Below are positions 49,042 to 62,754 of a stretch of 64,000 nucleotides of DNA, piece after piece. Position numbers and translations under genes: made by a program. Source of the stretch: Flavobacterium fluvii (GTDB lineage: Bacteria > Bacteroidota > Bacteroidia > Flavobacteriales > Flavobacteriaceae); contig NZ_FQWB01000001.1 in NCBI RefSeq assembly GCF_900129545.1, forward strand, positions 806,001 to 870,000. The letters run 5' to 3'. The stretch's first letter is position 1, and each line of letters begins with the position of its first letter. Below the pieces are notes generated by a model. It worked only from the letters and a program-made list of their open reading frames with translations, searched no databases and was not told where the DNA came from.

Positions 49042-49121
49042 GCCCGGATGGCGGAATTGGTAGACGCGCTGGTCTCAAACACCTGTGGGAAACCGTGCCG
49101 GTTCGACTCCGGCTCCGGGTA
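49042..49121 (+). tRNA. tRNA-Leu (anticodon CAA)
   Basis: A class II tRNA of about 80 nt without encoded CCA. The acceptor arm GCCCGGA / TCCGGGT (one G-T pair) is closed by discriminator A49121. The D-arm has GGCGGAATTGGTAGACGC, the anticodon loop CTCAAAC gives CAA, a short variable arm follows, and the T-arm is GCCGGTTCGACTCCGGC. Its 3' end is the left attachment site of the integrated element, and the 15-bp end is repeated at 60192-60206. Confidence 0.95.
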
Positions 49122-49122
49122 C
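49108..49122 (+). repeat. attL core (tRNA-Leu 3' end)
   Basis: TCCGGCTCCGGGTAC, part of the T-arm and acceptor stem. An identical copy is at 60192-60206. Weaker similarity continues upstream (GGTTCGAC here, GGTTTCAAT there). Confidence 0.9.
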
Positions 49123-49124
49123 TT

Positions 49125-49169
49125 AAAAAGTCTGTAATCACTTGTTTTTCAAGTATTACAGGCTTTTTT
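49125..49169 (+). terminator. Terminator after tRNA-Leu, carried by the element
   Basis: AGTCTGTAAT-C-ACTTG pairs with CAAGT-ATTACAGGCT around TTTTT, followed by six T. It lies inside attL, so it probably arrived with the element and replaces the resident terminator now stranded beyond attR. Confidence 0.8.
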
Positions 49170-49178
49170 ATTTTAAAA

Positions 49179-49199
49179 TTGCCCGACATTTGCCCGACA
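49179..49199 (+). repeat. Left arm-type repeat (double decamer)
   Basis: Two TTGCCCGACA units separated by a single T. The same 21 bp occur at 60021-60041 near the other end, in the same orientation. Candidate integrase arm-binding site. Confidence 0.8.
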
Positions 49200-49275
49200 A
49201 TTTGAGAAACACTAAAAAAAACATACATTTGTAATGGTTTACGATGCCAATTTTAAACCAACGTTTGAACGACGT

Positions 49276-49307
49276 AAAAAGGGAGCCTGAACAGCTCCCT
49301 TTTTTTT
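49276..49307. terminator. Bidirectional terminator at left end of element
   Basis: GGGAGC / GCTCCC stem flanked by AAAAA and T-run, loop CTGAACA. It lies about 25 bp past the stop of the minus-strand 189-aa gene and insulates the element from the tRNA. Confidence 0.85.
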
Positions 49308-49333
49308 GCATTAATATTTTAGAATACAAGTTA

Positions 49334-49903
49334 TTACTCTGCAGCAACATTTATTACACTATTTGAAATAAACAACTCTTTGGCTTTTAAAATAAAATCA
49401 CTTATCCCAATATTTTTATATCGTACTTCACAGGCTAGGCTTCCATATATATCACGCAATGTGTCTTTTTTTCTTTCATTTAGGATGTTATATGCACCCA
49501 TATTCATGTCTAAAAGAATAAAATCCACTTCGTATGGTAAATAGAGTTCATTTTCATTATCTGCCAGGCTACGTGAGAAAATTAAAAATTCTTCTTTTTT
49601 CTGTTCACTTTCGAAGTAGCTTTTAAGATCAGCATCCGAAAAAGACTTGTTATTTAAGACCGAATCCATTGCTTTATAGTAAATATCAGTATTAATCTGA
49701 AAATCGGATTTGAAATCTGAACACATTTTGTTTGCTTTTTTTACAACCCGGATCGAATTTAATATTTCAATAGAATGACAAAGCAATTCTTTTTCGTCAT
49801 CATAAGAAATACCACTTGAATCCAAAACTATAAACGAATTATATTCTCTTTTTTCTAAATATCCTTTCGGATTAACATCTACTTGTTCTTTTTGAAGTAC
49901 CAT
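49334..49903 (-). CDS. Unknown 189-aa protein at left end of element
   Basis: 189 residues, soluble, acidic, no signal peptide. I recognise no family. Segments such as YNSFIVLDSSGISYDDEKEL and YEVDFILLDMNMGAYNILNE (in the C-terminal half) look like an alpha/beta protein. It is transcribed away from the XRE regulator across the 180-bp operator region and is followed by its own terminator. That is the usual place for a satellite or prophage accessory gene, so a cargo role (for example superinfection exclusion) is possible but unsupported. Confidence 0.7.
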   Translation of the reverse strand: MVLQKEQVDVNPKGYLEKREYNSFIVLDSSGISYDDEKELLCHSIEILNSIRVVKKANKMCSDFKSDFQINTDIYYKAMDSVLNNKSFSDADLKSYFESEQKKEEFLIFSRSLADNENELYLPYEVDFILLDMNMGAYNILNERKKDTLRDIYGSLACEVRYKNIGISDFILKAKELFISNSVINVAAE

Positions 49904-49954
49904 AAATTTTAATTTTAATTGTTATTTAATGATTTGATTTTTCAATATTAAGTA

Positions 49955-50050
49955 TTACTATAATTATTTTGATGTAAATATAAGTATTAATATAATACAT
50001 GCATATTTTTACTATAATTATTTGAAAAAAAATTAAGTGTTACTATAATT
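49955..50050 (+). promoter_or_regulatory. Operator region with three TTACTATAATT repeats
   Basis: Exact copies of TTACTATAATT lie at 49955-49965, 50009-50019 and 50040-50050, with a degenerate relative at 49983-49998. They sit in the divergent intergenic region directly before the XRE regulator gene; the last copy touches the minus-7 box region. Likely binding sites for that regulator. Confidence 0.65.
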
Positions 50051-50053
50051 CGT

Positions 50054-50061
50054 TAACTTTG
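50054..50061 (+). promoter_or_regulatory. Putative minus-7 box of the XRE regulator gene
   Basis: TAACTTTG fits TAnnTTTG, 22 nt before the ATG at 50084 and 3 nt after the third operator repeat, so a bound regulator would block it. Confidence 0.55.
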
Positions 50062-50083
50062 TATAAATTTAAATAATGAAGCC

Positions 50084-50350
50084 ATGAACATTTTAAGACT
50101 AAAAGAATTAATGAATGAAAAAGGCATAACCGGAAAAGAATTGGCCGATAAAGTTGAGGTAACTCCGGCCAGTATTTCAAACATTGTCCAGGGAAATAGT
50201 TTTCCAAAACCTGATTTATTAATTAAAATTGCAGGGGTTTTGGATGTTGACGTTAGAGATTTATTTCAATCTACTAAACCAAATGAAACTGAAACTATTT
50301 TTGTGTTTCGTGAAGGTTCTTATACTCCAATCGGGAAATTGAATAAATAA
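50084..50350 (+). CDS. XRE-family transcriptional regulator (element repressor)
   Basis: 88 residues. A Cro/C1-type HTH spans residues 5-60: LKELMNEKGITGKELADKVE, then VTPASISNIVQGNSFPKPDL and IAGVLDVDVRDLFQ. A short tail (TIFVFREGSYTPIGKLN) has no peptidase or oligomerisation domain that I recognise. It is the only plus-strand regulator, divergent from the 189-aa gene, and is preceded by three identical operator-like repeats. It is the best candidate for the master repressor of the element. Confidence 0.88.
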   Translation: MNILRLKELMNEKGITGKELADKVEVTPASISNIVQGNSFPKPDLLIKIAGVLDVDVRDLFQSTKPNETETIFVFREGSYTPIGKLNK

Positions 50351-50374
50351 TTTAAGCATTAAAATAACCCTCAA

Positions 50375-50662
50375 ATGTATTTCAAAGATTCCGAGGTCGA
50401 TTTGATGCGGTCTATATTCAGGCGCTTGGACTTAAAAACCATCGAGAGTTTGCAATTGTATGTCAAAGACAATGATCGTCGCACGGGCTGTACACAGGTC
50501 GTTTACAACAAATGGAAAAAGCCTGTTTGCCTCTTCCAGAATTTTGAGTCGTTGTCGCCATATCGAATGAAGCTGCTTATGCGATTGGCCGAACAAATAC
50601 CTTACCCGATTCACATAACCGAACCTTGCGAAGGCATTATGACAATTGGATGGAAGGTATAA
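50375..50662 (+). CDS. Unknown 95-aa protein downstream of XRE regulator
   Basis: 95 residues, basic, 24 bp after the regulator on the same strand and so probably co-transcribed. No family recognised; SIFRRLDLKTIESLQLYVKD and PYRMKLLMRLAEQIPYPIHI look helical. It could be an anti-repressor or accessory regulator by position only. Confidence 0.6.
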   Translation: MYFKDSEVDLMRSIFRRLDLKTIESLQLYVKDNDRRTGCTQVVYNKWKKPVCLFQNFESLSPYRMKLLMRLAEQIPYPIHITEPCEGIMTIGWKV

Positions 50663-50717
50663 ATCACTAATTTCTGACCTGATCCGTAAAATGTACTTAT
50701 CAGGTGCGACCATAAAC

Positions 50718-50999
50718 TCACACAATTTTTAGTGTAGTGTCTAATTTTTCAATGATTACACTTTCATTCCTTGAAAAATACCTCAACTTAATAAGATTGA
50801 ATAGATCCAAACTCATAATGATTTTGTTGTCCAATGTTTTGAAACGTCCGACATATTCTTTTTTCAACAAATGTTTTAGATCATCACTAAAAGCAATAAT
50901 TTCATTTGTCATTTCATTGTGGTAGATTTTACCAAATTCATGGAAACAGTACTTTTCAATCAATAATATTTCCAGTTCTAATAATTCTGCATCTGTCAT
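50718..50999 (-). CDS. Unknown 93-aa protein after terminase small subunit
   Basis: 93 residues, mostly helical by appearance (TDAELLELEILLIEKYCFHE, DLKHLLKKEYVGRF). Its ATG overlaps the stop of the terminase small subunit gene (ATGA), so it is translationally coupled to it. It is the last gene of the long minus-strand operon and is convergent with the 95-aa gene. No family recognised. Confidence 0.6.
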   Translation of the reverse strand: MTDAELLELEILLIEKYCFHEFGKIYHNEMTNEIIAFSDDLKHLLKKEYVGRFKTLDNKIIMSLDLFNLIKLRYFSRNESVIIEKLDTTLKIV

Positions 51000-51541
51000 A
51001 TACCTGAATTAAGAAGTTTTTCTTTTAATTCTTTAAGCCTTTCGATTTTTTGTTCTGGAGAAAGAGTTTGCGCTTTCTGCTCATTGTCTTTTTCGTAGAA
51101 GCCGATGTGTTTGTTTATCTTCTCGATAGTCCAATCTTTGCCGTGAAGCTTTATCTCAATTCCAAAACGGGTTTCTTTGATTGACTCGATGCACATCAAC
51201 TGCTCCGGGGTGAGTTTGTTGAAATCCTTTAATGATAATTTGCCTTTTTTAAACTCTACATATTCATCAATACGAGAATTCCTAAGTACGTTAAGGTGTC
51301 GAAGCATTTCCTCAGCTGTAATATTGAATTTTTTTTCAGCAATTGCAGCTAATTTAATTCGCAGCTCTTTTATCCTTGTGGCTACCTTGTGGCTAGAACT
51401 TAACTTTGAAGACATTTCGTGAATTGTTTCTGGCTTCATTCTTGAAGCATTATAAGCCTCTCGATATGCAGCGGATTTGTCTCCCAATCGAATAAACGCT
51501 TGGCAAAAGGCTTCTTGTTTGAGTGTTAGGGTATCTTTCAT
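50996..51541 (-). CDS. Phage terminase small subunit
   Basis: 181 residues. The N-terminal DNA-binding region has the terminase small-subunit signature: LTLKQEAFCQAFIRLGDKSA, AYREAYNASRMKPETIHEMS, then VATRIKELR. The middle part with EEMLRHLNVLRNSR and a Lys/Glu-rich C-terminal helix follow. It recognises packaging sites on phage DNA and hands DNA to the large subunit. No large-subunit gene is present, so it would have to work with that of another phage, as in SaPI/PICI satellites, or be a remnant. The stop overlaps the next ATG. Confidence 0.82.
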   Translation of the reverse strand: MKDTLTLKQEAFCQAFIRLGDKSAAYREAYNASRMKPETIHEMSSKLSSSHKVATRIKELRIKLAAIAEKKFNITAEEMLRHLNVLRNSRIDEYVEFKKGKLSLKDFNKLTPEQLMCIESIKETRFGIEIKLHGKDWTIEKINKHIGFYEKDNEQKAQTLSPEQKIERLKELKEKLLNSGI

Positions 51542-51598
51542 AATTTTACCTGCTTTTAGGAAAAAAAGGGGTTTTTACGCCCCCTTATTTGAATACTA

Positions 51599-52273
51599 TT
51601 ATTGTTTCTGAAACATTGCTTTTCTACTGACAATCCATTTAATCATATCTGGTTTGATTTCTAGCTTTTCACCGTTTCGCGTTAAAAAATATGTTTCAAC
51701 ATAACTCATTTTACTAGCCATTTGATTCATTGCAATTCCAGTGTTCGTAATATACTTTTCAACTACTTCAAATGCTGCAATGAATTTCGTTAAATCCTCA
51801 TAAATAGTATGTTCTTCATCGGTTTCAAGATAAATTCTACATTGAGATTCTAACACATTTTCTTTGTCCTCTGGTGTAATTATAAAGCCTTTTTCATTGA
51901 AGGAAATATGTTTTAGAGACAATTGCTTTTCCCGGCTATAAGTATTTGGACGGAATTTTTTTAACTCATTAACATAAGTTATAAATTGATTCAAAAGTGT
52001 TTCAGATCCTGCTACGATATTGTCTTTGATAATTGACTTTGAAACCCCCATTTTTTTTATGTCAGATTCAATACTTGCTTTAAATCTTTTGGAAATTTCT
52101 GCCGTTCCTGAATAAACTATTTCACTATAAATTTGAGAAGTAAAAGCCCCTATTTCTAGTGATTCATAAATAGTTTTAAGATTCTCAAGCAAGGGTTTGA
52201 AATGCTTGAAATCTGAGCATATATCGTTCAATAATGAATCGTTTTGGCTTAATAAAATTCTATCTTTTTTCAT
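51599..52273 (-). CDS. Unknown 224-aa protein between tape measure and terminase genes
   Basis: 224 residues from the ATG at 52273; an in-frame ATG at 52315 overlaps the preceding small gene. Rich in helices (ICSDFKHFKPLLENLKTIYE, LLNQFITYVNELKKF), no signal peptide or membrane segment, and no motif recognised. It starts 10 bp after the 52-aa gene in the same operon. It may be a structural or assembly protein by context only. Confidence 0.65.
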   Translation of the reverse strand: MKKDRILLSQNDSLLNDICSDFKHFKPLLENLKTIYESLEIGAFTSQIYSEIVYSGTAEISKRFKASIESDIKKMGVSKSIIKDNIVAGSETLLNQFITYVNELKKFRPNTYSREKQLSLKHISFNEKGFIITPEDKENVLESQCRIYLETDEEHTIYEDLTKFIAAFEVVEKYITNTGIAMNQMASKMSYVETYFLTRNGEKLEIKPDMIKWIVSRKAMFQKQ

Positions 52274-52283
52274 GGTTTTTGCT

Positions 52284-52442
52284 TTAATTAAAAACGTTAC
52301 TAATAAAATCATCAATATCCCCCTGAGTTATATCAATGTCATCTTGATCCTGATTGTTTTCAGCATCTCTCAACTCAGATAGAGTTTGCTGTTTTTGAGC
52401 TATTTCAGCTTCTAAATTTTCAATTTGTTCTTTTCTGTTCAT
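52284..52442 (-). CDS. Small 52-aa acidic coiled-coil-like protein
   Basis: 52 residues, starting MNRKEQIENLEAEIAQKQQT, then LSELRDAE and an acidic tail (DQDDIDITQGDIDDFI). The first 28 residues have a heptad-like pattern. The gap between the tape-measure stop and this ATG is about 25 bp, and 10 bp separate it from the next gene, so it fits the operon. No family recognised. Confidence 0.55.
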   Translation of the reverse strand: MNRKEQIENLEAEIAQKQQTLSELRDAENNQDQDDIDITQGDIDDFISNVFN

Positions 52443-52467
52443 GATTTCTGTTTTTATAATTATTAAT

Positions 52468-55400
52468 TTATGGATTCCAATTTGTATTTTTCATTTTCCA
52501 GATTTCGTGAGGGATGTCAACTTTCGGGAGATTAACCGTTACATTGGTTTTGTTTTTCTCTATAGCTTTCCTGGTGAGCCTCATTTCTTCAACGAGTTCT
52601 TTGTTATTATTCTCATTGGCTTGAAATTCATCAATTCTCTTTTTTTGAACTCCAAAACTTGTCAAAACGGAAGCTCTCATATAAGCTTGGTAATCTGCCA
52701 TGGATTTATGCACGATATCGCCTTGGTTCAAGTGTGTAAGCGTTGGAATGTTTGGTGTCAATCTTGGATTCAAACCTCTTGAACTGGTAATAACCTCACT
52801 TACTCCACCATCACCAACCCAGGCTATTTCCGCTTTTCCACCTTTACGACCCATTTTATATTTTGGGATTGGTGTGGCGATTGCGGTGGCGGTGGCTACT
52901 GCTCCAGCAAGTCCAGCCATAATCATTAACGGTATTGCCGGAGCCGCTTTCATAATTGCAAGGGCGGTTTGGATACCAATCATTGCAACGGTAACGGCTT
53001 TATCAAATATGGCTTGTTTGTGTTGCTCTTTACGTTTCTTTTTCTCCAGTTCTTCGTTCTTTTTAGCACGCTCTTTTTCGAGTAGGTCTTTTTGACGGGC
53101 ATCGTTTCCGGCCAACTCGATTTGCTTGTCGTAGTATTCGTTGTTTTTAGCAATTTTATCGTCAATTTTTTGGATTTCAGCCTCGGAAAAACTATTACTT
53201 ACTTGCGATAAAATATCTAAAGATTGCATCGAGATATCGGCAATATCATTTATTGCTTTTTCATTTTCAGTATACCAAATAGCCAGTCTTTCAGCACCGG
53301 TTTTTCCTTTTTTGATCTCGTTTTCTTTGAATTTATCTCCTTCGGACTGGATCAATTTAACCGATAGTTCAGAAAGTTCTTTTCGTTTTGCGAGAATAAA
53401 ATCACTTTCTTTTTGGGTAATAACACCATCGGCTTTTGCTTTAGCTTCGTAAGCATCTAATTCAGCGTTTACAACAGAAATTTGAAGTTTGGCAATTGCA
53501 ATTAAACCTTCTTTTTTGATGTTGAATAAATTGCGCTCATGGTCCTGGGCTGCTTTTTCTTTGGCTTTGTCATTTTCATAACCCAAAGCCAATTCTTCCT
53601 GAAAGCGTTTTTCTTCAGCTGCGATCTCTTCATTGTTGGCAATTTCAATTACCGATATTCCACGCTTGATATTGTCCTCATAAGATTTTGCATCAAACTC
53701 ATTAATCTTGTCGATTACTTCAGCTGTGTTTTTCTCAATATCTTCAATCTTGAAAGCGGCTTCCTCGGTAATTTTTACTTTATCGGCTTCGTAATTTTTG
53801 CGTAATTGTATTAATCCCGCACTGGTTTTATTACCTTCTTTTAGTTCTTTGTCAAAAGTTTCTGCAGCTAATTTTAATTGATTTTCTTTCGATTTAGTAA
53901 TCAATTCAATTTGTGCGTTTTCACTGATTTCGAGCGACATCAAACGAGCCTCGTCTGTAGCTTCTGAATTAGCTACTACTTCATTATTTACTGAAATAAT
54001 TCTTTCAAGTCGTTGTTTTTCGAGTTCGAAAGTGGTGTCCTTTACTCCTTGGAGTTTTTTCTCTGTTCCGGTTCCAGTTCCTGACCCTGTTGATGATGAA
54101 GGTGCCGTTTCTTGCTCTTTTCTGGAAAGCCTTATTTTTGCTGCTGCTGCTTGAACTTTTTTATTTTGATCTTCAATTAGTTTGTCAAAATATCCCCCTG
54201 CCTTTACGCCGGCACTTGCTTCGCTTCTTTGTTTTTTAAGTTTTTTCATTAAATCCATTTCTGCGTTGAACTCCCAAGCATAACCGTCTCTTAATATTTT
54301 TCTAACTTCTTCTTGTGTTTTTTTAACGTTTTCTTTTTTGGATAACGCCAATTGCAAATCTTTTCTAAATTCAGATTCTCCAAGTTGAATTCCTTCTTTT
54401 TTTGCATCCATAAGGTTTTCAGAATGTCCTTTTATTGCTTTTGAAATTGCATTATTCATATCTGTAAACCAATTTATTACCCCTGTAGTAAGACCTCCTA
54501 CAACACTACCTAATTTAGAATCGGACATTGTTCTTATCAAATTGGTCCAGGAGTTTGTAAACTTGTTTGTAGATTTTGTTAGCGTATCAATTCCCTCGGC
54601 TTTATCGGCTCCAGTCATTATTACCAACTGCCTAGCGGTTTCCGGCAATACATCTGAAGCTAAAATTTTACCTGCTTTGATCATTTCAAACAATCCTTTT
54701 TCTGTCAAGTTTTTAATCTCTGGATGCAATTTTTGGACGGCTTTAAGCATTGCTTGAACCGATCCCGGCAATGCTTCTGCTAATTGACCTCTCAATTCCT
54801 CGCTTGCGACAGTTCCTTTTGAAAGCATTTGATTTAAAGCCATAAAAGAACGTTCTAATGTTTCATTCGATAATCCAAGTGCGCTCCCTGATTTTGAAAT
54901 ATTTTCGAATAAATCTTGAATTTCTCCAGCTGCCAATTTATCTTTTGCAGCTACATAAAAAGCTGTATATTGTTTGGTTAGATTTTTTATTTCTAAACCA
55001 TATTTATCCGCGATTGCAGTCAAAAATGTTTGCTGTTCTTGAAAGTTTTGTTGAGTTTCGGTAACTGATTTTAATGCCAAATCTAAAGATTGAAGCTCTT
55101 TTGTTGTGTTGAAAATATCTTTTGATATTGAAACAAAAGCCGTAATTCCTCCAACAATTCCAAAAGCAGACATTATATTTCCAATTCCAGAAAATGCACT
55201 TTTGTAGTTGCCTACATTTTTGCTGAAGTCTCCAACGGCTTTATCTGCTTTTTTGATTTTGGCATCATAACCATCGAATGCTCTTTGTGCTTTTTGAATT
55301 TCTAAAGTAGATGCTTTTTCTGAAGCAATTAGATCGCGAAGTTTGTTTTTAGCATCTGTCCTGGCTTTATTCAGTTTTTCGTATGCTCCAACTAATCCTA

Positions 55401-55782
55401 ATCTTTCAAGGGTTTCCTGTTTGATTTTCTTGTTGGTTTCGGCCAATAAAACACGTTCTTTTGTTAATTCCCGGTTTGTTCCCTCGGTTGCCAGTTCAGT
55501 TTTCTTTTTGGTAGCAATCAAAGCATTTTCTAACTGGATTTGCTCTTTCCATATATCTAATGATTTTTTGTTTTGTTCATTCAATTTTTTGCTGTTTTCT
55601 GCAAATTCTTTTTGGTTGGTGGATCCTCTCAAAAGTTTATTAGCTTCGTTCATTTCCAAAATTGAGATTGCGAACTCCTTATTTTTGCCAATGGCCAGTT
55701 CCATCGTCTTTTTGTAATCTTCGCCCCAGTTTAGAGCGTCATCAGTTATGATGTCTTTTCGGGTTATCGTTCCTTCTGCCAT
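52468..55782 (-). CDS. Phage tail tape-measure protein
   Basis: 1104 residues. Seen: an N-terminal coiled-coil region rich in Lys/Glu; a tape-measure domain at about residues 190-400 containing ADKYGLEIKNLTKQYTAFY, SALGLSNETLERSFMALNQM and GTVASEELRGQLAEALPGSV; a long charged coiled coil (about 580-930); a hydrophobic Ala/Ile/Met-rich segment at about 932-972, typical of tape-measure C-terminal parts; and a C-terminal tail with WVGDGGVSEVITSSRG. Such proteins set tail length and help DNA or the channel cross the envelope. Other tail genes (tube, sheath, baseplate, chaperones) are absent, which is unusual. Confidence 0.9.
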   Translation of the reverse strand: MAEGTITRKDIITDDALNWGEDYKKTMELAIGKNKEFAISILEMNEANKLLRGSTNQKEFAENSKKLNEQNKKSLDIWKEQIQLENALIATKKKTELATEGTNRELTKERVLLAETNKKIKQETLERLGLVGAYEKLNKARTDAKNKLRDLIASEKASTLEIQKAQRAFDGYDAKIKKADKAVGDFSKNVGNYKSAFSGIGNIMSAFGIVGGITAFVSISKDIFNTTKELQSLDLALKSVTETQQNFQEQQTFLTAIADKYGLEIKNLTKQYTAFYVAAKDKLAAGEIQDLFENISKSGSALGLSNETLERSFMALNQMLSKGTVASEELRGQLAEALPGSVQAMLKAVQKLHPEIKNLTEKGLFEMIKAGKILASDVLPETARQLVIMTGADKAEGIDTLTKSTNKFTNSWTNLIRTMSDSKLGSVVGGLTTGVINWFTDMNNAISKAIKGHSENLMDAKKEGIQLGESEFRKDLQLALSKKENVKKTQEEVRKILRDGYAWEFNAEMDLMKKLKKQRSEASAGVKAGGYFDKLIEDQNKKVQAAAAKIRLSRKEQETAPSSSTGSGTGTGTEKKLQGVKDTTFELEKQRLERIISVNNEVVANSEATDEARLMSLEISENAQIELITKSKENQLKLAAETFDKELKEGNKTSAGLIQLRKNYEADKVKITEEAAFKIEDIEKNTAEVIDKINEFDAKSYEDNIKRGISVIEIANNEEIAAEEKRFQEELALGYENDKAKEKAAQDHERNLFNIKKEGLIAIAKLQISVVNAELDAYEAKAKADGVITQKESDFILAKRKELSELSVKLIQSEGDKFKENEIKKGKTGAERLAIWYTENEKAINDIADISMQSLDILSQVSNSFSEAEIQKIDDKIAKNNEYYDKQIELAGNDARQKDLLEKERAKKNEELEKKKRKEQHKQAIFDKAVTVAMIGIQTALAIMKAAPAIPLMIMAGLAGAVATATAIATPIPKYKMGRKGGKAEIAWVGDGGVSEVITSSRGLNPRLTPNIPTLTHLNQGDIVHKSMADYQAYMRASVLTSFGVQKKRIDEFQANENNNKELVEEMRLTRKAIEKNKTNVTVNLPKVDIPHEIWKMKNTNWNP

Positions 55783-55791
55783 GGTTATTTT

Positions 55792-56670
55792 TTATTGGTT
55801 AATATTAAAATTTGATTTGTGTTTTTCGATAATTTGAGCTGAATCAAACACGTATGCTTTTTTTACCCCAAACATTGCATTAACTGCATTGACAGCGGAT
55901 TGTTTAAGATCAGCATCTGTTCTTGATGAATTGTTACTCCTTACGTTTTCTTTGTTTACATAATTATCTTCTAAAATCTTTATGAAATTGGCCGGTTTGA
56001 AAATCCAATCAAAGCTGGCTGCCCAGTTTTCTTTATTGTCACCTTGTAGAAAATTTGAATCCCGAACCTTTTCAATTACAATTTGTATTGATTCTTTACC
56101 GTGTTGTTTTTGAAGTGATAAAATTCTATTTTCTCTTACTTTAGTCATTTTTTTTACTTCAGGTAAAACACCCCGATTTGCATTAAAAAAAGAAAGAAGT
56201 TTATCAAAATCAATCTTGGGATGGTTGGGTTGATTTGGAAAATCAACAACTCCTTTAGGAGTATATTCTTCTTTCTTAAATTCATTTTCATTAACAGTTA
56301 CCGTATCTGTTACCGTATCTGTTACCGTATCTTTATCCTTAACAGTTAAATTTGTTTGAACATTTTTAACACTTGTTAAATTTGTTAAATCCTGATTGTT
56401 TAATTTCAGTAACCGTCTGGCTTCCACGCTCGCTTTTCCTGCTTTACTTCGCCCTTCGATTGTTTGCTCCCATTTTTTAAGATCTCTTTTTAAAGTGTTC
56501 TCGATGTCAATAAATGAAAGCTTTGTTATTTTGTCTGGAGCCTCTGGATTTAAATCATTCACATACCTAAAAAAGTGTTTTATAAGCCTTCCGGCTTCGT
56601 CATCTTCTAGGATTTCAAATTTTTCAATCCAATCTGTATAAACCATAACAACTTTTTTATTATCTGCCAT
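55792..56670 (-). CDS. DUF6291-like phage protein, possible replication initiator
   Basis: 292 residues from the ATG at 56670, 4 bp after the upstream stop; an ATG at 56730 would overlap that gene. The N-terminus (VVMVYTDWIEKFEILEDDEA, GRLIKHFFRYVNDLNPE) matches the DUF6291 pattern I associate with phages of Bacteroidota. A KAGKASVEARR linker and a DTVT repeat tract (about residues 115-127) follow. The C-terminal part (VRENRILSLQKQHGKESIQI, FLQGDNKENWAASFDWIFKP) resembles the C-terminal domain of phage replication-initiation/DnaD-like proteins. A replication role is an inference from that. Confidence 0.7.
   Translation of the reverse strand: MADNKKVVMVYTDWIEKFEILEDDEAGRLIKHFFRYVNDLNPEAPDKITKLSFIDIENTLKRDLKKWEQTIEGRSKAGKASVEARRLLKLNNQDLTNLTSVKNVQTNLTVKDKDTVTDTVTDTVTVNENEFKKEEYTPKGVVDFPNQPNHPKIDFDKLLSFFNANRGVLPEVKKMTKVRENRILSLQKQHGKESIQIVIEKVRDSNFLQGDNKENWAASFDWIFKPANFIKILEDNYVNKENVRSNNSSRTDADLKQSAVNAVNAMFGVKKAYVFDSAQIIEKHKSNFNINQ
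56297..56332 (-). repeat. In-frame 12-bp tandem repeat in the DUF6291-like gene
   Basis: Three exact copies of GTTACCGTATCT (plus strand) encode consecutive DTVT units on the minus strand, in the linker between the N- and C-terminal domains. Confidence 0.9.
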
Positions 56671-56674
56671 TGCT

Positions 56675-57226
56675 TTAGTCTTTAGTGAATTCATTAAGCC
56701 ATTGAAAAAATTGCGAGAAGTTTTCAACAATCAAAAACAAGCCTTCAGCGGATTCAATTTGTTTTATACTTCCGACACTTCCTTTATCTTGATTTTTACT
56801 CACAATAGGGCTAGATTTAATCAGTATTTTAATATTTTGACCTTTTATAGTTGTTGATATATTATAAAATTTGTTTTTATGATTGGTTTTTATAAACTGG
56901 ACACTTCCAATGGTTCGTTTATTCCCTAAAACATCAGTTGAGGTTTTGCGTTTATCTATAAAAAATCCTTTGGAATTGATTTTTTCGACCTGGAACCCAT
57001 TGAAGCCAATGTAATCCACAACACACTTTATGAGTTTGTTACTGGTTGAATCAGTATAAGTTGGTTTTGGATAATAGGGATTATTTGGGTAGCGTTCTTT
57101 GAGTTTCTCAAGTGCCAGCCGCTCCAGAATCTTCACGCTTTCAGGTTTGATGTAGCGCAATTTTATAGTTTTGCCTTGTTTCAAACTATTGAAACAAGGA
57201 CCATGATTGTTTCCTTCGCTACTCAT
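56675..57226 (-). CDS. Unknown 183-aa protein of the element
   Basis: 183 residues. A basic N-terminus (KPESVKILERLALEKLKERY with PNNPYYPKPTYTD) leads to a small alpha/beta core (LIKCVVDYIGFNGFQVEKIN, RTIGSVQFIKTN, FYNISTTIKGQNIKILIKSS). The core pattern, with a beta strand followed by IKILIK, recalls small phage-encoded endonuclease-like folds such as VRR-NUC, but I cannot identify catalytic residues with confidence. It lies between the HTH gene and the DUF6291-like gene, 4 bp from each. Confidence 0.6.
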   Translation of the reverse strand: MSSEGNNHGPCFNSLKQGKTIKLRYIKPESVKILERLALEKLKERYPNNPYYPKPTYTDSTSNKLIKCVVDYIGFNGFQVEKINSKGFFIDKRKTSTDVLGNKRTIGSVQFIKTNHKNKFYNISTTIKGQNIKILIKSSPIVSKNQDKGSVGSIKQIESAEGLFLIVENFSQFFQWLNEFTKD

Positions 57227-57230
57227 GGTC

Positions 57231-57512
57231 CTATTTTTTTAGAGGAATCAAACTTTTCTCTATATCGGAACGCAAGAAATAAACTCGGGAACCGATACCC
57301 AAAGGATTAAGTTTTCCGGATTTGCACCAATTATGAACGGTGCTCAAATCTACATTGAACATTTCAGACACCTGTTGACGGGTTAAGTATTCAGCAGGTT
57401 GTACAGGTTTGAAGTGTTTTAAAAAGTCGTCCAAAACTACTTTTACATCAGCTGTAATTTCATTTTTTAAATCTTGTGGCGAAGTTGCCACGAATTGAAC
57501 TGTTGCACCCAT
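57231..57512 (-). CDS. HTH (MerR/excisionase-type) DNA-binding protein
   Basis: 93 residues from the ATG at 57512, the start of MGATVQFVATSPQDL; an ATG at 57563 adds an unrelated hydrophobic stretch. Residues 42-93 form a helix-turn-helix of the HTH_17 type: YLTRQQVSEMFNVDLSTVHN with WCKSGKLNPLGIGSRVYFL and RSDIEKSL. Proteins of this shape serve as excisionases or replication/transfer regulators in mobile elements. With the integrase nearby, a directionality factor is the best guess. Confidence 0.82.
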   Translation of the reverse strand: MGATVQFVATSPQDLKNEITADVKVVLDDFLKHFKPVQPAEYLTRQQVSEMFNVDLSTVHNWCKSGKLNPLGIGSRVYFLRSDIEKSLIPLKK

Positions 57513-57622
57513 AATAATTTGTTTAATTGTTATAGTGCAAATGAATTGAAACAAAATACCCACCTACTGCCCATTGGGTAGTTGGTGGGTATGAAATTTA
57601 ACAGTTTTGGCTTGAATTAAGT

Positions 57623-58249
57623 TTAATCTTCGCGTTTTATCCAATTCATTAATGAGGTTTCTAAAGTATTGATTACTGGAGTTGGTTCTTTGGTTCTTTT
57701 TCTAACCTGCTTTAGTTTGTCGCTTTTGTCAAAATCGTCAACATTAAAAAACTGTTTCATTCTCTCAAAAACTTCTTTTTCGTTCTTGACTTTACCAATA
57801 AAACCACTTTCAATTAATGCTTTTGTAAACTCTGCAAATTCTAATGTTGAACCTTGCCATTGCAATGTATTTTCATTCTGTTGAGGTTCGTTTGTTGAGG
57901 TTGTTGGATCTGATTCTAATTCCTGTTTTCTGTTTTCTAAAAATTGAATTATTTTAAGTGTTGAAATTCCTGTTTTTTCCCAGTCCAATTCTTGATTATC
58001 GGTTAATCCACCTTCCAATAATTCCGTCATTACTATGCGGTCTTTTTTTTCATTTTCAGTTAAGTGTGAGTTATCATAGAAATTATATTCAAAGGCTCGC
58101 ATTGTATGGCTGTAGTACCATAATTGTTCGTCAATAAAAGTTAGCTCACAGTTATCTTCATATTCCGCTATATGTTCTTCCAATTTTTTTTGGTAGTTTT
58201 CTATATAGTCTTTTGAGGTGCCCCATGTAAATTTTATCTTTATGCTCAT
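57623..58249 (-). CDS. RteC-like C-terminal domain protein
   Basis: 208 residues. The first 110 are acidic and helical (YIENYQKKLEEHIAEYEDNC, WYYSHTMRAFEYNFYD). The last 90 match the C-terminal RteC pattern: LQWQGSTLEFAEFTKALIES, then FERMKQFFNVDDFDKSDK and LKQVRKRTKEPTPVINTLET. RteC controls excision genes of Bacteroides conjugative transposons such as CTnDOT. Its presence in an 11-kb phage-like element suggests control of excision, but the relation is only by pattern. Confidence 0.7.
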   Translation of the reverse strand: MSIKIKFTWGTSKDYIENYQKKLEEHIAEYEDNCELTFIDEQLWYYSHTMRAFEYNFYDNSHLTENEKKDRIVMTELLEGGLTDNQELDWEKTGISTLKIIQFLENRKQELESDPTTSTNEPQQNENTLQWQGSTLEFAEFTKALIESGFIGKVKNEKEVFERMKQFFNVDDFDKSDKLKQVRKRTKEPTPVINTLETSLMNWIKRED

Positions 58250-58298
58250 TTTGACCTTGATTTTGTGTTAATTATGATTTTGTTTAATCCAAAAGGAG

Positions 58299-58562
58299 TT
58301 ATTTTTTCTTTCTCAAGTGATCCGGTTTTTTTGCCCGTTGGCCGCTTTCAATTAAATTCTTGAACCGTTCCACTCCTTGTTGCTTTGTTTCTTTTGGTTT
58401 AGGCTTGACAGCGACACGTTTTGCAGCATCACTTCCAAGCTCTTCACCAGGGCTTTTGAGTAATTCATAACCCTTTTCAAAATGTTCCCGCAAACATTTG
58501 TATTTTTCGCTTATTTCTAACAAACGATTATATTCTTCAATTGGAATCGTGATTGATTTCAT
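58299..58562 (-). CDS. Unknown small basic protein next to integrase
   Basis: 87 residues: MKSITIPIEEYNRLLEISEK, a helical part, then a Lys-rich tail (KPKPKETKQQGVERFKNL ... HLRKKK). The opening resembles small DNA-binding or antitoxin-like N-termini, but no partner toxin is adjacent. It lies 40 bp downstream of the integrase stop in the same direction. Function unknown. Confidence 0.65.
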   Translation of the reverse strand: MKSITIPIEEYNRLLEISEKYKCLREHFEKGYELLKSPGEELGSDAAKRVAVKPKPKETKQQGVERFKNLIESGQRAKKPDHLRKKK

Positions 58563-58602
58563 TTTGGATTTTTTTAAACATTGAAAAATTTATGTTTTTC
58601 AG

Positions 58603-59958
58603 TTAGTTGCTGGTTCCGTTTTTTATAACTGTAAACTGTGGTTTTGGTTCTTGCTCGGCTTCTTTCTGTTTGGCCTCCCTTTGTTTTTGTATATCTCCGT
58701 AAAACTTCATAAACAAATCGGCGTTTTCGTCTGTGTCCTCCGGTGCATTTATGTAAACCCTAAATATCGATTCTTTTGAATGCCCGCTAATGCCCATCAA
58801 TACGGGTGTAGGTATCTTTTTGTAATAGTTAGTACAGAATGAACGGCGAAAACTGTGTGTAGTGATAAGTTTGTGTTTTTCGTATAAATCGAACTTTTTA
58901 CGTCCGGTTTCGGAGTCAAAGATTTTGCCCTCTGTCATTGCGTTTATTTTAGCAGTTTCGCAAACTTTTTTGATATGGTCGTTTAGTTTTTGGGTTGTTA
59001 TTTTATAAGGAAAACTGTTTTCGAGTATGTCGATAACGTGCGGAGCTATTATTCCAATGGTAACGGCTTTCTTGGTTTTCTGCTGGACTAAATCGAGATA
59101 CATATTCTCACCTTTGTATCTTATATTGTCCGGCGTTATGTCGAGTAAATCCCCGCCACGCTGTCCAATTTCACAACCTATCAATAACCATTTACGGGCG
59201 TTTTGGTGAGCCTCGCTTTTTATGTCAGCTTTTATGATTTCGTCCAGTTCGGCAAAAGACAAAGTTTGTATGTATCTGTCGTCGTCGCTTTCCGATGCTA
59301 TTGTTATTTGTTTTGCATAGGAATTAACCTGAACACCTTTGTTTTCGGCTTCAATACAAACGGTTTTTATATTGGCAATGTGTTTTGAGGACGTGTTTAC
59401 GGCGTATTTTTTGGTTTTAAGTAGCCAATACTCAAACTTATCAATTAACGCTTGATTAATGTCTGTAAAGTGAATTTGCTTTTTGGTTTTGGTTTGGTAT
59501 TCTTTTATAATGTTTTTTGTGGCTATGTAGCTGTTTTTTCTACTTAACGAAAGGCCGTGTTTATAACCACCTTTAACTTTTACTTTGCGAGTGTCTGCCG
59601 TGTCGATTATGTTTTGAATGTAGTTTGTAATTAACCCATCATCGGTTTTTTCTACACGATTGAAACATTCGTTAATTTTTGATTCCAGCCAAAAAGCATC
59701 TATTACAATACTTTCCCCCATAGCATTATTAATACTATCAAAAAGGAATGGATCTAACTTTTTGAGATTGTTAGATAGTTTTTTGTTTTCCGGGTTATTT
59801 TGTTTTGGTAGTCCAGTTGACTCGCTCCAGTCTTTCGGGTTTATAGTGAAGCCAGTATTTAATTCTAAATCTTGTTTGCCTCGTCCTAAAGTAACACGGA
59901 CTTTAATCGGCACGTTTTTGTTTGCATTACTACGCAATCGGAATTTAATTGATGCCAT
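58603..59958 (-). CDS. Tyrosine site-specific recombinase (integrase)
   Basis: 451 residues. N-terminal arm-binding region (MASIKFRLRSNANKNVPIKV, LNTGFTINPKDWSE), a SAM-like core-binding domain (about 100-215) and a catalytic domain with the first Arg at about residue 266 (GQRGGDLLDITPDNI), HSFR at about 366-369 (TTHSFRRSFCTNYYKK), a GHSKESIFRVY stretch and a candidate nucleophile Tyr at about 400. This is the usual Bacteroidota integrase layout. It lies next to attR and should catalyse integration and excision at tRNA-Leu. Confidence 0.94.
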   Translation of the reverse strand: MASIKFRLRSNANKNVPIKVRVTLGRGKQDLELNTGFTINPKDWSESTGLPKQNNPENKKLSNNLKKLDPFLFDSINNAMGESIVIDAFWLESKINECFNRVEKTDDGLITNYIQNIIDTADTRKVKVKGGYKHGLSLSRKNSYIATKNIIKEYQTKTKKQIHFTDINQALIDKFEYWLLKTKKYAVNTSSKHIANIKTVCIEAENKGVQVNSYAKQITIASESDDDRYIQTLSFAELDEIIKADIKSEAHQNARKWLLIGCEIGQRGGDLLDITPDNIRYKGENMYLDLVQQKTKKAVTIGIIAPHVIDILENSFPYKITTQKLNDHIKKVCETAKINAMTEGKIFDSETGRKKFDLYEKHKLITTHSFRRSFCTNYYKKIPTPVLMGISGHSKESIFRVYINAPEDTDENADLFMKFYGDIQKQREAKQKEAEQEPKPQFTVIKNGTSN

Positions 59959-60020
59959 ATTTGTGAAATTGAACGTTTGAACAATTCAAAGATATTCAAT
60001 TTGTAGGACGTTTCAAAACT

Positions 60021-60041
60021 TTGCCCGACATTTGCCCGACA
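60021..60041 (+). repeat. Right arm-type repeat (double decamer)
   Basis: Two TTGCCCGACA units separated by a single T, identical to 49179-49199. It lies 62 bp upstream of the integrase ATG and 150 bp inside attR, where integrase arm sites and promoter control are expected. Confidence 0.8.
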
Positions 60042-60191
60042 TTTTCACAGTCTTATTAAATTTTATTCAATTTCATTCTATAATGTGGAGTATTTTCAAT
60101 TTTTACAAAGCATTGTAATTGTTGATGTTGTAGGTTGTTTTTGTGCAATTTTCGTGAAGTTTTTAAAATCGTCAAATTGAGTGGTTTCAAT

Positions 60192-60206
60192 TCCGGCTCC
60201 GGGTAC
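60192..60206 (+). repeat. attR core
   Basis: TCCGGCTCCGGGTAC, identical to the tRNA-Leu 3' end at 49108-49122. A stub of the resident tRNA gene left after insertion. Confidence 0.9.
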
Positions 60207-60236
60207 AAAAGCCTCTTCGAAAGAAGAGGCTTTTTT
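60207..60236 (+). terminator. Resident tRNA-Leu terminator beyond attR
   Basis: AAAAGCCTCTT / AAGAGGCTTTT stem with a short loop and T-run directly after the attR core. Before integration it would have followed the tRNA gene. Confidence 0.85.
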
Positions 60237-61499: not shown

Positions 61500-61814
61500 T
61501 TACTTCACTTGCAAAGTCATTCCCAGCGCATTGATAATTTGTACAAAATTGGATATTTGCAAATCGGTCTTTCCTTGTTCAATTTTGGCAATATAGGCGC
61601 GTTCTTTTCCTATTTGGTCAGCGAGTTGCTGTTGGGTAAGGTGTTTTTCTTTGCGTTTTTCTTTTATTAATTCGCCATAGTAAAAAGCCAAGGCGTTTTT
61701 TGAAAACTCTTCTCTTTCAGGAGTTCCTTGTTTTCCGTATTGTTCGTCTAAATAGTCGTTGACTGTGGGCAACTCCCTTTTTATTCTTTCTAAATCTAAT
61801 TTTGGTCTAGCCAT
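61500..61814 (-). CDS. XRE-family antitoxin
   Basis: 104 residues. The C-terminal half is a Cro/C1 HTH (IKEKRKEKHLTQQQLADQIG, then KERAYIAKIEQGKTDLQISN), ending ALGMTLQVK; the N-terminal half would bind the toxin. The order toxin-antitoxin and the 19-bp overlap with the toxin gene fit a HigBA-type module, in which the antitoxin also represses the operon. Confidence 0.88.
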   Translation of the reverse strand: MARPKLDLERIKRELPTVNDYLDEQYGKQGTPEREEFSKNALAFYYGELIKEKRKEKHLTQQQLADQIGKERAYIAKIEQGKTDLQISNFVQIINALGMTLQVK

Positions 61815-62134
61815 TGTATTAAAATTTTAGTTGCTATTTTTATTTGTTTATCGTAGTCCTTGGTCGATTTTTTCATAAATCCGTTGAGTAACAAAATGTT
61901 TTTACTTTGGTTTATGTTATCGTGGTCTATTGCAAAAACAATAATTCGATATTCATTTTTTACTTGTATTCGTACCTCGTAAAAATCGGTATTGATTAAT
62001 TTCTTTGCTACTTTGGTATTTATTACGGGTTGCGTTGTTAAAATATCGGACAAATAAGAAATTTTTTCTTTTGTTGAAGGGTCTAAACTTTCTAAAAACG
62101 CTGTAAATTCAGGTGTAATAAATAATATTCTCAT
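61796..62134 (-). CDS. RelE/HigB-type toxin
   Basis: 112 residues with the RelE/ParE fold pattern: FITPEFTAFLESLDPSTKEK, KLINTDFYEVRIQVKNEYRI, and the strand IVFAIDHDNINQSKNILLLN followed by GFMKKSTKDYDKQIKIA, which is typical of HigB-like mRNA-cleaving toxins. It overlaps the antitoxin start. It has its own promoter box and is not within the integrated element. Confidence 0.88.
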   Translation of the reverse strand: MRILFITPEFTAFLESLDPSTKEKISYLSDILTTQPVINTKVAKKLINTDFYEVRIQVKNEYRIIVFAIDHDNINQSKNILLLNGFMKKSTKDYDKQIKIATKILIQWLDQN

Positions 62135-62147
62135 ATTAATTCTTTTG

Positions 62148-62155
62148 CAAATGTA
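62148..62155 (-). promoter_or_regulatory. Putative minus-7 box of the toxin-antitoxin operon
   Basis: The minus strand reads TACATTTG, fitting TAnnTTTG, 13 nt before the toxin ATG. A GTTA...TAAC inverted repeat just upstream could be the antitoxin operator. Confidence 0.55.
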
Positions 62156-62313
62156 ATTAATTCGTTACTAAATAACAATTATTATTGGTGTAACGCTTGA
62201 TTTAGTTTCGGTTGTGTTTCTGTCCTAATCTAAAAACACGATTACAATTTTTGAATTATTGATAGAGTCAGACAATTCAAATATAATTAATTAAAGAATA
62301 TGTTTACTTTTCA

Positions 62314-62754
62314 TCATACCTTCTTTATCACATAAGTCACAATTCCCCAAATGATTAACTGGTTTTCTTCGGTGACTTTTATGGGAGGATAATTGGGGTT
62401 TTCGGGCATCAGGTACAAACAGTCTTTTTCGAGCTGGATGCGTTTTACGGTGAATTCGCCGTCGATGAAGCAAATGGCGATTTTGTTGTTTTGGGGTTCC
62501 AGACTTCGGTCAACGACCAAAACATCTTTGTCGTTGATGCCGGCGTCAATCATCGAGTTACCCTTGACTTTTATGTAGAAAGTGGCCAAAGGATTTTCAC
62601 TCAATTCCTTGTTTAGATCAATGCCGGTCTCCATAAAATCGGCCGCAGGCGAGGGAAATCCAGCCGAAACACCTTCTTTTATGAAAGGAATTCGCAGTTC
62701 GCTTTCAAAATCAGGGGTAAAAAACGTCAGCTTTTGGTCTTTGATTATTGACAT
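62314..62754 (-). CDS. umuD: UmuD-like S24 peptidase (DNA polymerase V accessory)
   Basis: 146 residues. Self-cleavage site A31-G32 (EGVSAGFPSPA), catalytic Ser67 in KGNSMIDAG and Lys104 in EFTVKRI match UmuD. After RecA-stimulated cleavage it activates UmuC for translesion synthesis. It overlaps the 3' end of umuC by 10 bp and comes after it in transcription, the reverse of the E. coli order. Confidence 0.93.
   Translation of the reverse strand: MSIIKDQKLTFFTPDFESELRIPFIKEGVSAGFPSPAADFMETGIDLNKELSENPLATFYIKVKGNSMIDAGINDKDVLVVDRSLEPQNNKIAICFIDGEFTVKRIQLEKDCLYLMPENPNYPPIKVTEENQLIIWGIVTYVIKKV

Follow-up and report, generated by a model that had tools for sequence, protein, structure and literature searches.

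The 64,000 nucleotides of Flavobacterium fluvii DNA analysed here, referred to as the window, contain an integrated unit in which genes for a tape measure protein (TMP) and a terminase small subunit (TerS) lie amongst genes for integration, regulation and replication. The question raised by this locus is whether the unit is what remains of a prophage or a satellite that borrows the virion of another phage. It is probably a phage satellite, one that would redirect the packaging of a helper siphovirus through its own TerS and would place its own TMP in the helper tails.

The element is integrated at a tRNA-Leu(caa) gene (49042..49122, + strand), identified by ARAGORN and Rfam RF00005, and spans 49123-60206 (11,084 bp) because the end of this tRNA recurs as an att repeat. 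The left copy of the repeat, TCCGGCTCCGGGTAC, represents the last 15 bases of the tRNA 3' end (49108..49122, +), and a repeat search of the window returned a single further copy of this 15-bp sequence, in the same orientation, at 60192..60206 (+), with a host terminator next to it at 60207. In genome G005 (L094) an intact tRNA-Leu is followed directly by a terminator hairpin, which is 94.7% identical over 38 bp to the window hairpin starting at 60207 and so displays the empty site. The tRNA gene, the att repeat and this empty site bear out the original prediction of an 11-kb tRNA-integrated unit, although the span of 50718-59958 that it gave covers the gene core and leaves out a 189-aa gene, the XRE repressor and a 95-aa ORF (49334-50662). 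Paired copies of a 20-bp repeat, TTGCCCGACATTTGCCCGAC, are found inside both element ends at 49179 and 60021 (49179..49203 and 60021..60045, both +) and may act as arm sites for the integrase. The GC content of the element is 33.9%, against 37.3% for the window.

From the right-hand end, the - strand encodes a tyrosine integrase of 451 aa (58603..59958; PF00589), an 87-aa ORF with no family above its cut-off (58299..58562), an RteC-domain protein (57623..58249; PF09357), an HTH_17 excisionase-like protein (57231..57512; Pfam/PHROG), a 183-aa backbone protein (56675..57226) that is 61% identical in the F. soyangense element, 48% in L074 and 43% in L075, and a DUF6291/DnaD-like replication protein (55792..56694), recognised by Pfam and by a PHROG DnaD-like helicase-loader match. 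The same strand continues with the TMP of 1104 aa (52468..55782; PF20155, E 7e-30), which occupies the tail-gene slot, a 52-aa protein (52284..52442) that is about 50% identical to one in a TMP-less relative (L060/L072), a 224-aa family-marker protein of unknown function (51599..52273; AlphaFold mean pLDDT 90, no confident fold match), TerS (50996..51541; PF03592, E 4e-13; PHROG) and a 93-aa protein (50718..50999) that overlaps the end of terS. Beyond these lie a 95-aa ORF of unknown function (50375..50662, +), an XRE/CI-like repressor with an HTH_3 domain (50084..50350, +; Pfam), which is 81% identical in L075 and 60-62% in L188/L189, and the 189-aa protein (49334..49903, -), whose function is unknown, which has no Pfam or PHROG match and which is 55% identical to a gene of the related element L075. 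A stretch of 93 bp ahead of the repressor, between divergent genes (49957..50049, no strand assigned), contains three copies of ACTATAAT, out of six when both strands of the window are counted, a clustering that renders the previously proposed repressor operators plausible. The 81%-identical L075 repressor is preceded by a single exact copy, together with three near copies judged by eye.

No match to TerL, portal, capsid, tail tube or lysin was obtained when the 14 ORFs of the element were scanned with Pfam and 10 of these with PHROGs. The gene set and the absence of structural and lysis genes are thereby as first described, the two scans agreeing, and TMP and TerS are both intact, as had also been claimed. 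An integrated element with its own integrase and att repeats that is missing the genes of an autonomous virion (TerL, portal, capsid and tail tube) has the make-up of a phage satellite. An integrase of 82% identity is located at tRNA-Leu(caa) in G014 and one of 83% identity in G002, in elements without packaging genes.

Other elements contain the gene set as well, which is therefore no product of chance. A related block, marked by the 224-aa protein, is found elsewhere in the Flavobacteriaceae, as a lineage and not as a single remnant. In F. soyangense (L044/L059) the block can be read directly, with TMP, 224-aa-type, TerS-type, 93-aa-type and 183-aa-type genes beside a tmRNA gene. Amongst 40 x 120 listed proteins, a TMP homologue and a 224-aa homologue fall on equal-sized contigs in 10 pairs where 0.1 would be expected, with eight of the 10 contigs measuring 8-13 kb; from contig size, the TMP appears to accompany the 224-aa protein on nine contigs beyond F. 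soyangense. Another relative, L061 from a viral contig collection, closes into a 9.4-kb circle.

In L061 and L189 a tail protein of 739/764 aa takes the place of the TMP, as it does in Flavobacterium sp. GT2N3 on the evidence of equal-sized contigs and the locus tags ACNQGP_07220/07235. In seven of 12 viral contigs compared, the product of the gene after TMP shares 71-81% identity with the L061 protein, which is likely to be a tail-tip protein; in phage Freya, too, a virion structural protein related to it is encoded after the TMP. These two neighbours in the phage are the only kinds of tail gene in the minimal elements mapped. The slot is optional and the family looser than its core, since six of the 10 distinct mapped elements (the window counted, G734 kept apart and weak 224-aa matches in G013, G057, G063 and G682 left out) have neither tail gene, and in L073 and L076 neither a TerS-type nor a 93-aa-type gene was seen as well. 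Relatives of the 224-aa protein occur on 17 contigs longer than 7 kb, with the slot content identified in all but six. The marker also occurs outside minimal satellites, for in G734 (L188/L191) a relative is found together with portal, TerS, TerL, TMP and tail genes.

The TMP aligns with phage TMPs at full length, with both ends conserved, which was the outcome of the comparison with full phages that had been called for. It is 62-66% identical, depending on the method, to the F. soyangense TMP (1105 vs 1104 aa), and a dN of 0.27 and dS of 1.57 between the two (dN/dS 0.17) reveal that the protein is under purifying selection. TMPs are exchanged, as indicated by mosaicism around residues 400-600 and by a quick tree in which three changes are needed between phage and satellite labels. 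The earlier idea that the element's own TMP would give tails of different length is unsupported because satellite TMPs (1023-1119 aa, linked through equal-sized contigs) overlap in size with the shorter of the phage TMPs (979-1481 aa). The different host specificity that was suggested alongside it may nevertheless apply. The neighbours of the TMP gene are those for the DUF6291 and 52-aa proteins, and no tail-assembly chaperone gene was recognised beside it with Pfam or PHROG families. Besides the host, 12 genomes of the genus have a TMP match: G146 has a lone TMP and eight have a tail-tip gene nearby (10 loci), whilst G092, G093, G221 and the second TMP of G104 (L045) were left out of this sorting.

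The packaging genes point to the kind of phage that may act as helper. TerS is 56-57% identical to prophage TerS in G162 and G174, and its counterpart on viral contig L034 is 69% identical across 132 aa; these three phages also carry related TMPs. Relatives of the DUF6291 protein, several of them over the C-terminal half only, are found on seven viral contigs that also carry TMP. By sequence comparison, the likely helpers are thus phages whose TMP, TerS and replication genes are related to those of the element; the helper is hypothetical, since a search of the host genome yielded no helper prophage. The 98-99-aa 'TerS' proteins of other elements matched neither a TerS family nor anything in the phage collection.

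The 93-aa protein starts with MTDAELLELEILL, which matches the N-terminal peptide of TerL from helper-type phages. The similarity is to a peptide of about 13 residues, and a pattern composed after the peptide had been seen is present in 24 of 2,708 distinct ORFs, namely 18 TerL homologues and six rows from five satellite-type elements, amongst which L190 is counted for a 94-aa protein recognised solely through pattern and position, BLAST giving no match at 1e-4. The TerLs that carry it belong to two PHROG groups (four tested), and it is absent from the TerLs of L045/L087, L081, L183 and L188. The confinement of this head to TerLs and satellite proteins suggests packaging piracy through TerL mimicry, of which no description was found in the searchable literature. 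Neither the TerL-like head nor the sister elements with the other tail gene featured in the earlier reading of this DNA.

The satellite cycle might proceed as follows. A phage with element-like TMP, TerS and replication genes would infect the cell and derepress the element, which would excise and replicate with its DUF6291 protein. The satellite TerS would then dock onto the helper TerL and steer it to satellite DNA, with the 93-aa protein occupying the helper TerS, or the docking site, to hold back helper DNA. At tail assembly the satellite TMP would substitute for that of the helper, and the resulting chimeric tails could serve for injection where the helper's TMP does not, whether into other cells or past exclusion systems. 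In the sister elements the equivalent role would fall to the likely tail-tip protein. More tentatively, and less probably than not, these elements may represent a Bacteroidota family that has a slot into which a single tail part, TMP or tail-tip, is plugged to decide how and into whom the borrowed virion injects, and that has a TerL-docking-peptide protein which seizes the packaging motor.

The element could instead be a decayed prophage in which TMP and TerS merely survived the loss of the head and most tail genes, as might be thought from the resemblance of the family's TMP, TerS, replication and tail proteins to those of Flavobacterium-type phages and from the G734 element, which looks like an intermediate. 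This is improbable, since random decay would not repeat the same set on 10 size-matched contigs, eight of them at 8-13 kb, and related elements have the other single tail gene or none. The block beside different tRNA and tmRNA genes, the circle-closing relative and the purifying selection on TMP favour a satellite over decay, in line with the original prediction. It is equally improbable that the tail genes are passengers, gained by recombination with helper phages and of no role to the satellite. The label changes in the TMP tree, the mosaic region and the six elements devoid of both tail genes would fit such a view, but a passenger would not be expected to be under purifying selection and to take up 30% of the element, nor would the slot be confined to two phage neighbours.

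A marginally better, though still unlikely, alternative is that the TMP is an interference protein that poisons helper tails or titrates the tail chaperone and so protects the cell, with the satellite using unmodified helper tails; a block of helper tails was one of the options in the original prediction. Satellites are known to carry defences that block tail assembly, such as Tai (PMC11364771) and Rta (PMC12987554), and the lack of a recognised chaperone gene beside the TMP is compatible with this. Against it, deletions in the Vibrio PLEs demonstrate that a satellite TMP aids transfer (PMC12987554). The protein here is moreover no truncated decoy, and a poisoned tail would strand the satellite as well.

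The reading as a satellite that pirates packaging and tails can be placed beside known systems. PICIs are defined by a pri-rep replication module and by alpA/stl regulators next to int, a layout not found here, where a DUF6291/DnaD-like protein is present instead and the XRE repressor and the integrase occupy opposite ends of the element. The element shares with SaPIs and Gram-negative PICIs an integrase, a repressor, a replication-type gene and its own packaging gene within about 11 kb, that gene being of the packaging-redirecting kind (terS or rpp) in the form of a PF03592 TerS with a predicted redirecting function; its tail gene and TerL-like peptide set it apart. The cf-PICIs, as their name says, encode their own capsid genes, none of which was found here in the Pfam and PHROG scans. 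Forsetiviridae Freya and Danklef of Polaribacter are the top named phages amongst the matches listed, with the TMP matched at 39% over 38% of the query and TerS at 35%, but these are complete phages of 44-49 kb with TerL, portal and capsid and are too distant to be the helper. Rpp is described as binding TerS and blocking phage packaging (PMC6739421), and the 93-aa protein may be its functional analogue. The N-terminal peptide that two groups of TerL have in common with the satellite 93-aa proteins may mark a TerS-TerL docking contact that parasites exploit.

The presence of a TMP in a satellite is not in itself new, because both PLEs and cf-PICIs have tmp genes, putative in the sampling of cf-PICIs given in the legend of Extended Data Fig. 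10 (PMC12987554). The original prediction knew of no described satellite with a solitary TMP, and literature searches brought up no lone one in the Bacteroidota. The novelty would lie in a satellite family of that phylum with a lone alternative tail gene and a TerL-head mimic. A close parallel by description is with the PLEs, integrated satellites that parasitise the contractile-tailed phage ICP1, encode their own TMP together with a chaperone gene and, in some cases, a baseplate hub, and make chimeric tails, the TMP being required for efficient transduction; chimeric tails built by a satellite were reported in 2026 as a first for these elements, with the benefit left open (PMC12987554). The PLE baseplate hub has its parallel in the likely tail-tip protein that sister elements encode, whereas the chaperone gene that accompanies PLE tmp is unrecognised here, where the TMP is instead found beside TerS. 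In elements of another phylum the TMP is the sole recognised tail gene, and sister elements have the adjacently encoded protein in its stead, a natural swap that makes the gain to a satellite from changing one tail part directly testable.

The element occupies positions 49123–60206 of the window, as the last 15 bases of tRNA-Leu(caa) (49042–49122, ARAGORN) have one further copy in the window, at 60192–60206. The empty site is shown by a related genome (G005), in which the same tRNA is joined directly to the terminator that starts at 60207. The minus strand of the element encodes a tyrosine integrase, an RteC-domain protein, an HTH/excisionase-like protein, a 183-aa protein, a DUF6291 protein whose PHROG matches are to a DnaD-like helicase loader, a tape measure protein (TMP, 1104 aa), 52-aa and 224-aa proteins, a small terminase subunit (TerS) and a 93-aa protein. 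At the tRNA end, an XRE repressor gene and a 189-aa gene diverge from each other. Large terminase (TerL), portal, capsid, tail-tube and lysis families were not matched among these genes in Pfam and PHROG scans, and the gene content originally predicted is confirmed. To the right of the element, a stretch that may be another variable region (61500–63953) holds a toxin-antitoxin-like pair of adjacent HTH_3 and Gp49-like proteins, together with genes that look umuD/umuC-like by eye. Integrases 82–83% identical are found in other mobile elements without satellite packaging genes, at tRNA-Leu(caa) in G014 (L115 5664–10561) and in G002 (L117 549–5412), the latter adjoining a partial att copy on another contig.

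The TMP was matched in 13 of 249 genus genomes, the window's own counted. Eight of the 12 others (10 loci) carry it near a tail-tip-type gene, as in phages, and the search for like elements in related Flavobacterium genomes that the original prediction proposed found the window's arrangement in F. soyangense (G146); G092, G093 and G221 fall outside this sorting. The F. soyangense element (L059; NZ_JADHEC010000055.1, 10,958 bp) adjoins a tmRNA gene and has the order HTH, 181-aa protein, a different 230-aa protein, TMP (1105 aa), and 51-aa, 228-aa, 99-aa and 91-aa proteins. A Nei-Gojobori script gave dN 0.27, dS 1.57 and a ratio of 0.17 between the two TMPs, and dN/dS of 0.15–0.32 for three other common genes.

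The 224-aa protein marks the element family. It has 40 relatives in the protein database, and was matched in 10 of 398 genus genomes (six clear, window counted; four weak, of which G011 proved on mapping to be a real relative) and, at family level, in 5 of 397 genomes (the window, three clear matches and a fragment). Among distinct mapped elements, the slot occupied by the TMP in the window and L059 holds a tail-tip-type protein in L061 and L189 and neither in L060 (= L072), L073, L074, L075, L076 and L190. All three of the 224-aa, TerS-type and 93-aa-type genes occur together in the window, L059, L061, L074, L075 and L190; the mapped L060 and L189 have no 93-aa-type gene, and the mapped L073 and L076 no TerS-type or 93-aa-type gene. 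Adjoining RNA genes include tRNA-Leu, tRNA-Arg and tmRNA, with att sites worked out for the window only. The element is a member of a family, not a relic.

L061 is a 9,523-bp viral contig whose ends overlap by 121 bp, which closes it to a 9,402-bp circle. Besides an integrase of its own and a DUF6291 protein 76% identical, it encodes 224-aa and 93-aa relatives, a 98-aa protein and a single tail protein of 739 aa (phrog_15220, virion structural, E 6e-115). The latter is 71–81% identical to the protein after the TMP in seven of the 12 viral contigs with which it was compared. L189, which comes from a different genus of the family, encodes a 764-aa relative (37%; phrog_15220, E 2e-90). As the protein follows the TMP in phages, its position points to a tail-tip-type protein. 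In Flavobacterium sp. GT2N3, likewise, a 224-aa relative and a tail-tip-type protein are encoded on a contig of 310,336 bases, under locus tags ACNQGP_07220 and 07235. A 20-kb element of G734, between an integrase and tRNA-Arg (L188 58–14547, L191 12255–18999), contains an XRE repressor, a 224-aa relative, an SPP1-type portal, a head-morphogenesis protein, TerS, TerL, a 1226-aa TMP and a Prophage_tail protein; no capsid or tail-tube gene was seen in it, and it may represent either an intermediate or a satellite type of larger size.

Linkage was also inferred from equal lengths of contigs between protein lists, the contigs themselves not being inspected. At least 10 equal-length pairs, one of them F. 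soyangense, join the 224-aa protein's 40 relatives to the 120 TMP relatives listed, against a mean of 0.1 and at most 2 when lengths were shifted by 1–300 bases. The two tail lists, TMP and tail-tip-type (best 120 of 516 and best 120 of 445 matches), have at least 27 lengths in common (0.26 expected), as expected for phages, and no length is common to all three lists among the matches listed. On contigs above 7 kb, at least nine of 17 relatives of the 224-aa protein pair with a TMP by this measure and at least two with a tail-tip-type protein (P0023 and P0031, the latter's 9,523-base contig matching L061), six having no slot assignment among the matches listed.

In a quick tree built from 84 TMPs, of which 11 rows are labelled satellite, 27 phage and 46 carry no label, three label changes between satellite and phage are needed, against a shuffled mean of 9.7. 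The window and most satellite rows form one cluster; P0062 and P0083 adjoin phage-labelled rows apart from it, and TMPs were therefore probably captured from phages more than once. The window TMP proved full-length on comparison with those of phages; the 1096-aa TMP of phage contig L118 matches it at 78–89% identity over residues 101–400, about 25% over 401–600 and 55–66% over 901–1100. The suggestion that it would give a different tail length finds no sign here, because satellite TMPs (1023–1119 aa) overlap in length with those of phages (979–1481 aa). Nine rows of 1005–1045 aa, some satellite-linked (P0051, P0057, P0064, P0067, P0068, P0070, P0071, P0073 and P0076), are without a listed PF20155, yet their C-terminal half is 64–84% identical to the window TMP; they are mosaic tape measures.

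The likely helpers are phages with related TMP, TerS and DUF6291 genes. The window TerS is 56–57% identical to TerS of prophages in G162 and G174 and, across 132 residues, 69% identical to the one on viral contig L034; all three sources also have a related TMP. Besides L061, 13 viral contigs encode DUF6291 relatives, in several cases with a match limited to the C-terminal half; seven of the 13 have a related TMP. Among the matches listed for named phages, Polaribacter Freya/Danklef rank top for TMP and TerS, and Tenacibaculum phage JQ (29%) for the tail-tip-type protein. A search of the host's own genome found no helper prophage. In the G174 prophage (L086 12055–15001 / L047) TerL is apparently split into two ORFs, one of 148 aa for the N-terminus and one of 661–764 aa with the rest of TerL and extra sequence, intein-like by eye.

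In other elements a 98–99-aa protein replaces the window-type TerS. It matches no TerS family and nothing in the phage collection; in the alignment most of these proteins and the window TerS have a common C-terminal tail. Because a 128-aa relative directly precedes the TerL gene in L183, it is probably a TerS as well. The 93-aa protein, whose gene overlaps terS, has the N-terminus MTDAELLELEILL. A pattern derived from it and from TerL heads occurs in 24 of 2,708 distinct ORFs, always within the first 33 residues: 18 TerL homologues and six rows from five satellite-type elements (the window, F. soyangense twice, L061, L074 and L190). Since the similarity had been noticed before the pattern was drawn up, this count serves to control for chance spread and not as an independent test. 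BLAST at 1e-4 matched the L190 protein to none of the others, and pattern and position were used to place it; in L075 the pattern missed a near match. TerLs with the shared head are of phrog_2 and phrog_38 types (four tested); those of L045/L087, L081, L183 and L188 are without it. The N-terminal peptide LTDAEILELExLL, nearly identical in TerLs of L033, L035, L051, L052, L128, L132 and others from two PHROG groups, suggests a docking peptide that may move between terminases. The simplest reading is that the TerL head would dock TerS and has been copied by the satellite.

It is fairly probable that the element is a satellite that would redirect the packaging of a helper siphovirus with its own TerS and put its own TMP into helper tails; confidence is slightly lowered because L073 and L076 are without packaging genes and the 93-aa-type protein of L190 was assigned from pattern and position. 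Rpp is described as binding helper TerS and blocking phage packaging (PMC6739421). By analogy, the 93-aa protein would hold helper TerS, and the satellite TerS would meanwhile bring TerL to satellite DNA. Deletion of tmp from PLEs lowers transduction by 96% in PLE1 and 99% in PLE4, as described in PMC12987554, where TMPs are also apparent targets of anti-tail defence (Rta against the ICP1 TMP). As in PLEs, the satellite TMP would enter the tail. In HK97, the tape measure takes part in genome injection. In a structural model, the tail protein of the sister elements shows a variable C1q/TNF-like domain, which suggests receptor binding; this protein and the satellite TMP would both act at the point of contact between particle and cell.

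The original prediction knew of no described satellite with a solitary TMP. PMC12987554 presents PLEs as the first satellites for which chimeric tails are known and shows putative tmp genes for a sampling of cf-PICIs, so that a satellite TMP as such has precedents. Searches of open-licence literature listed no satellite of this kind from Bacteroidota. Unlike PLEs, the Flavobacterium family shows no recognised chaperone gene and, unlike cf-PICIs, no capsid gene, and its own feature beside both is a set of alternative tail genes, either TMP or tail-tip-type.
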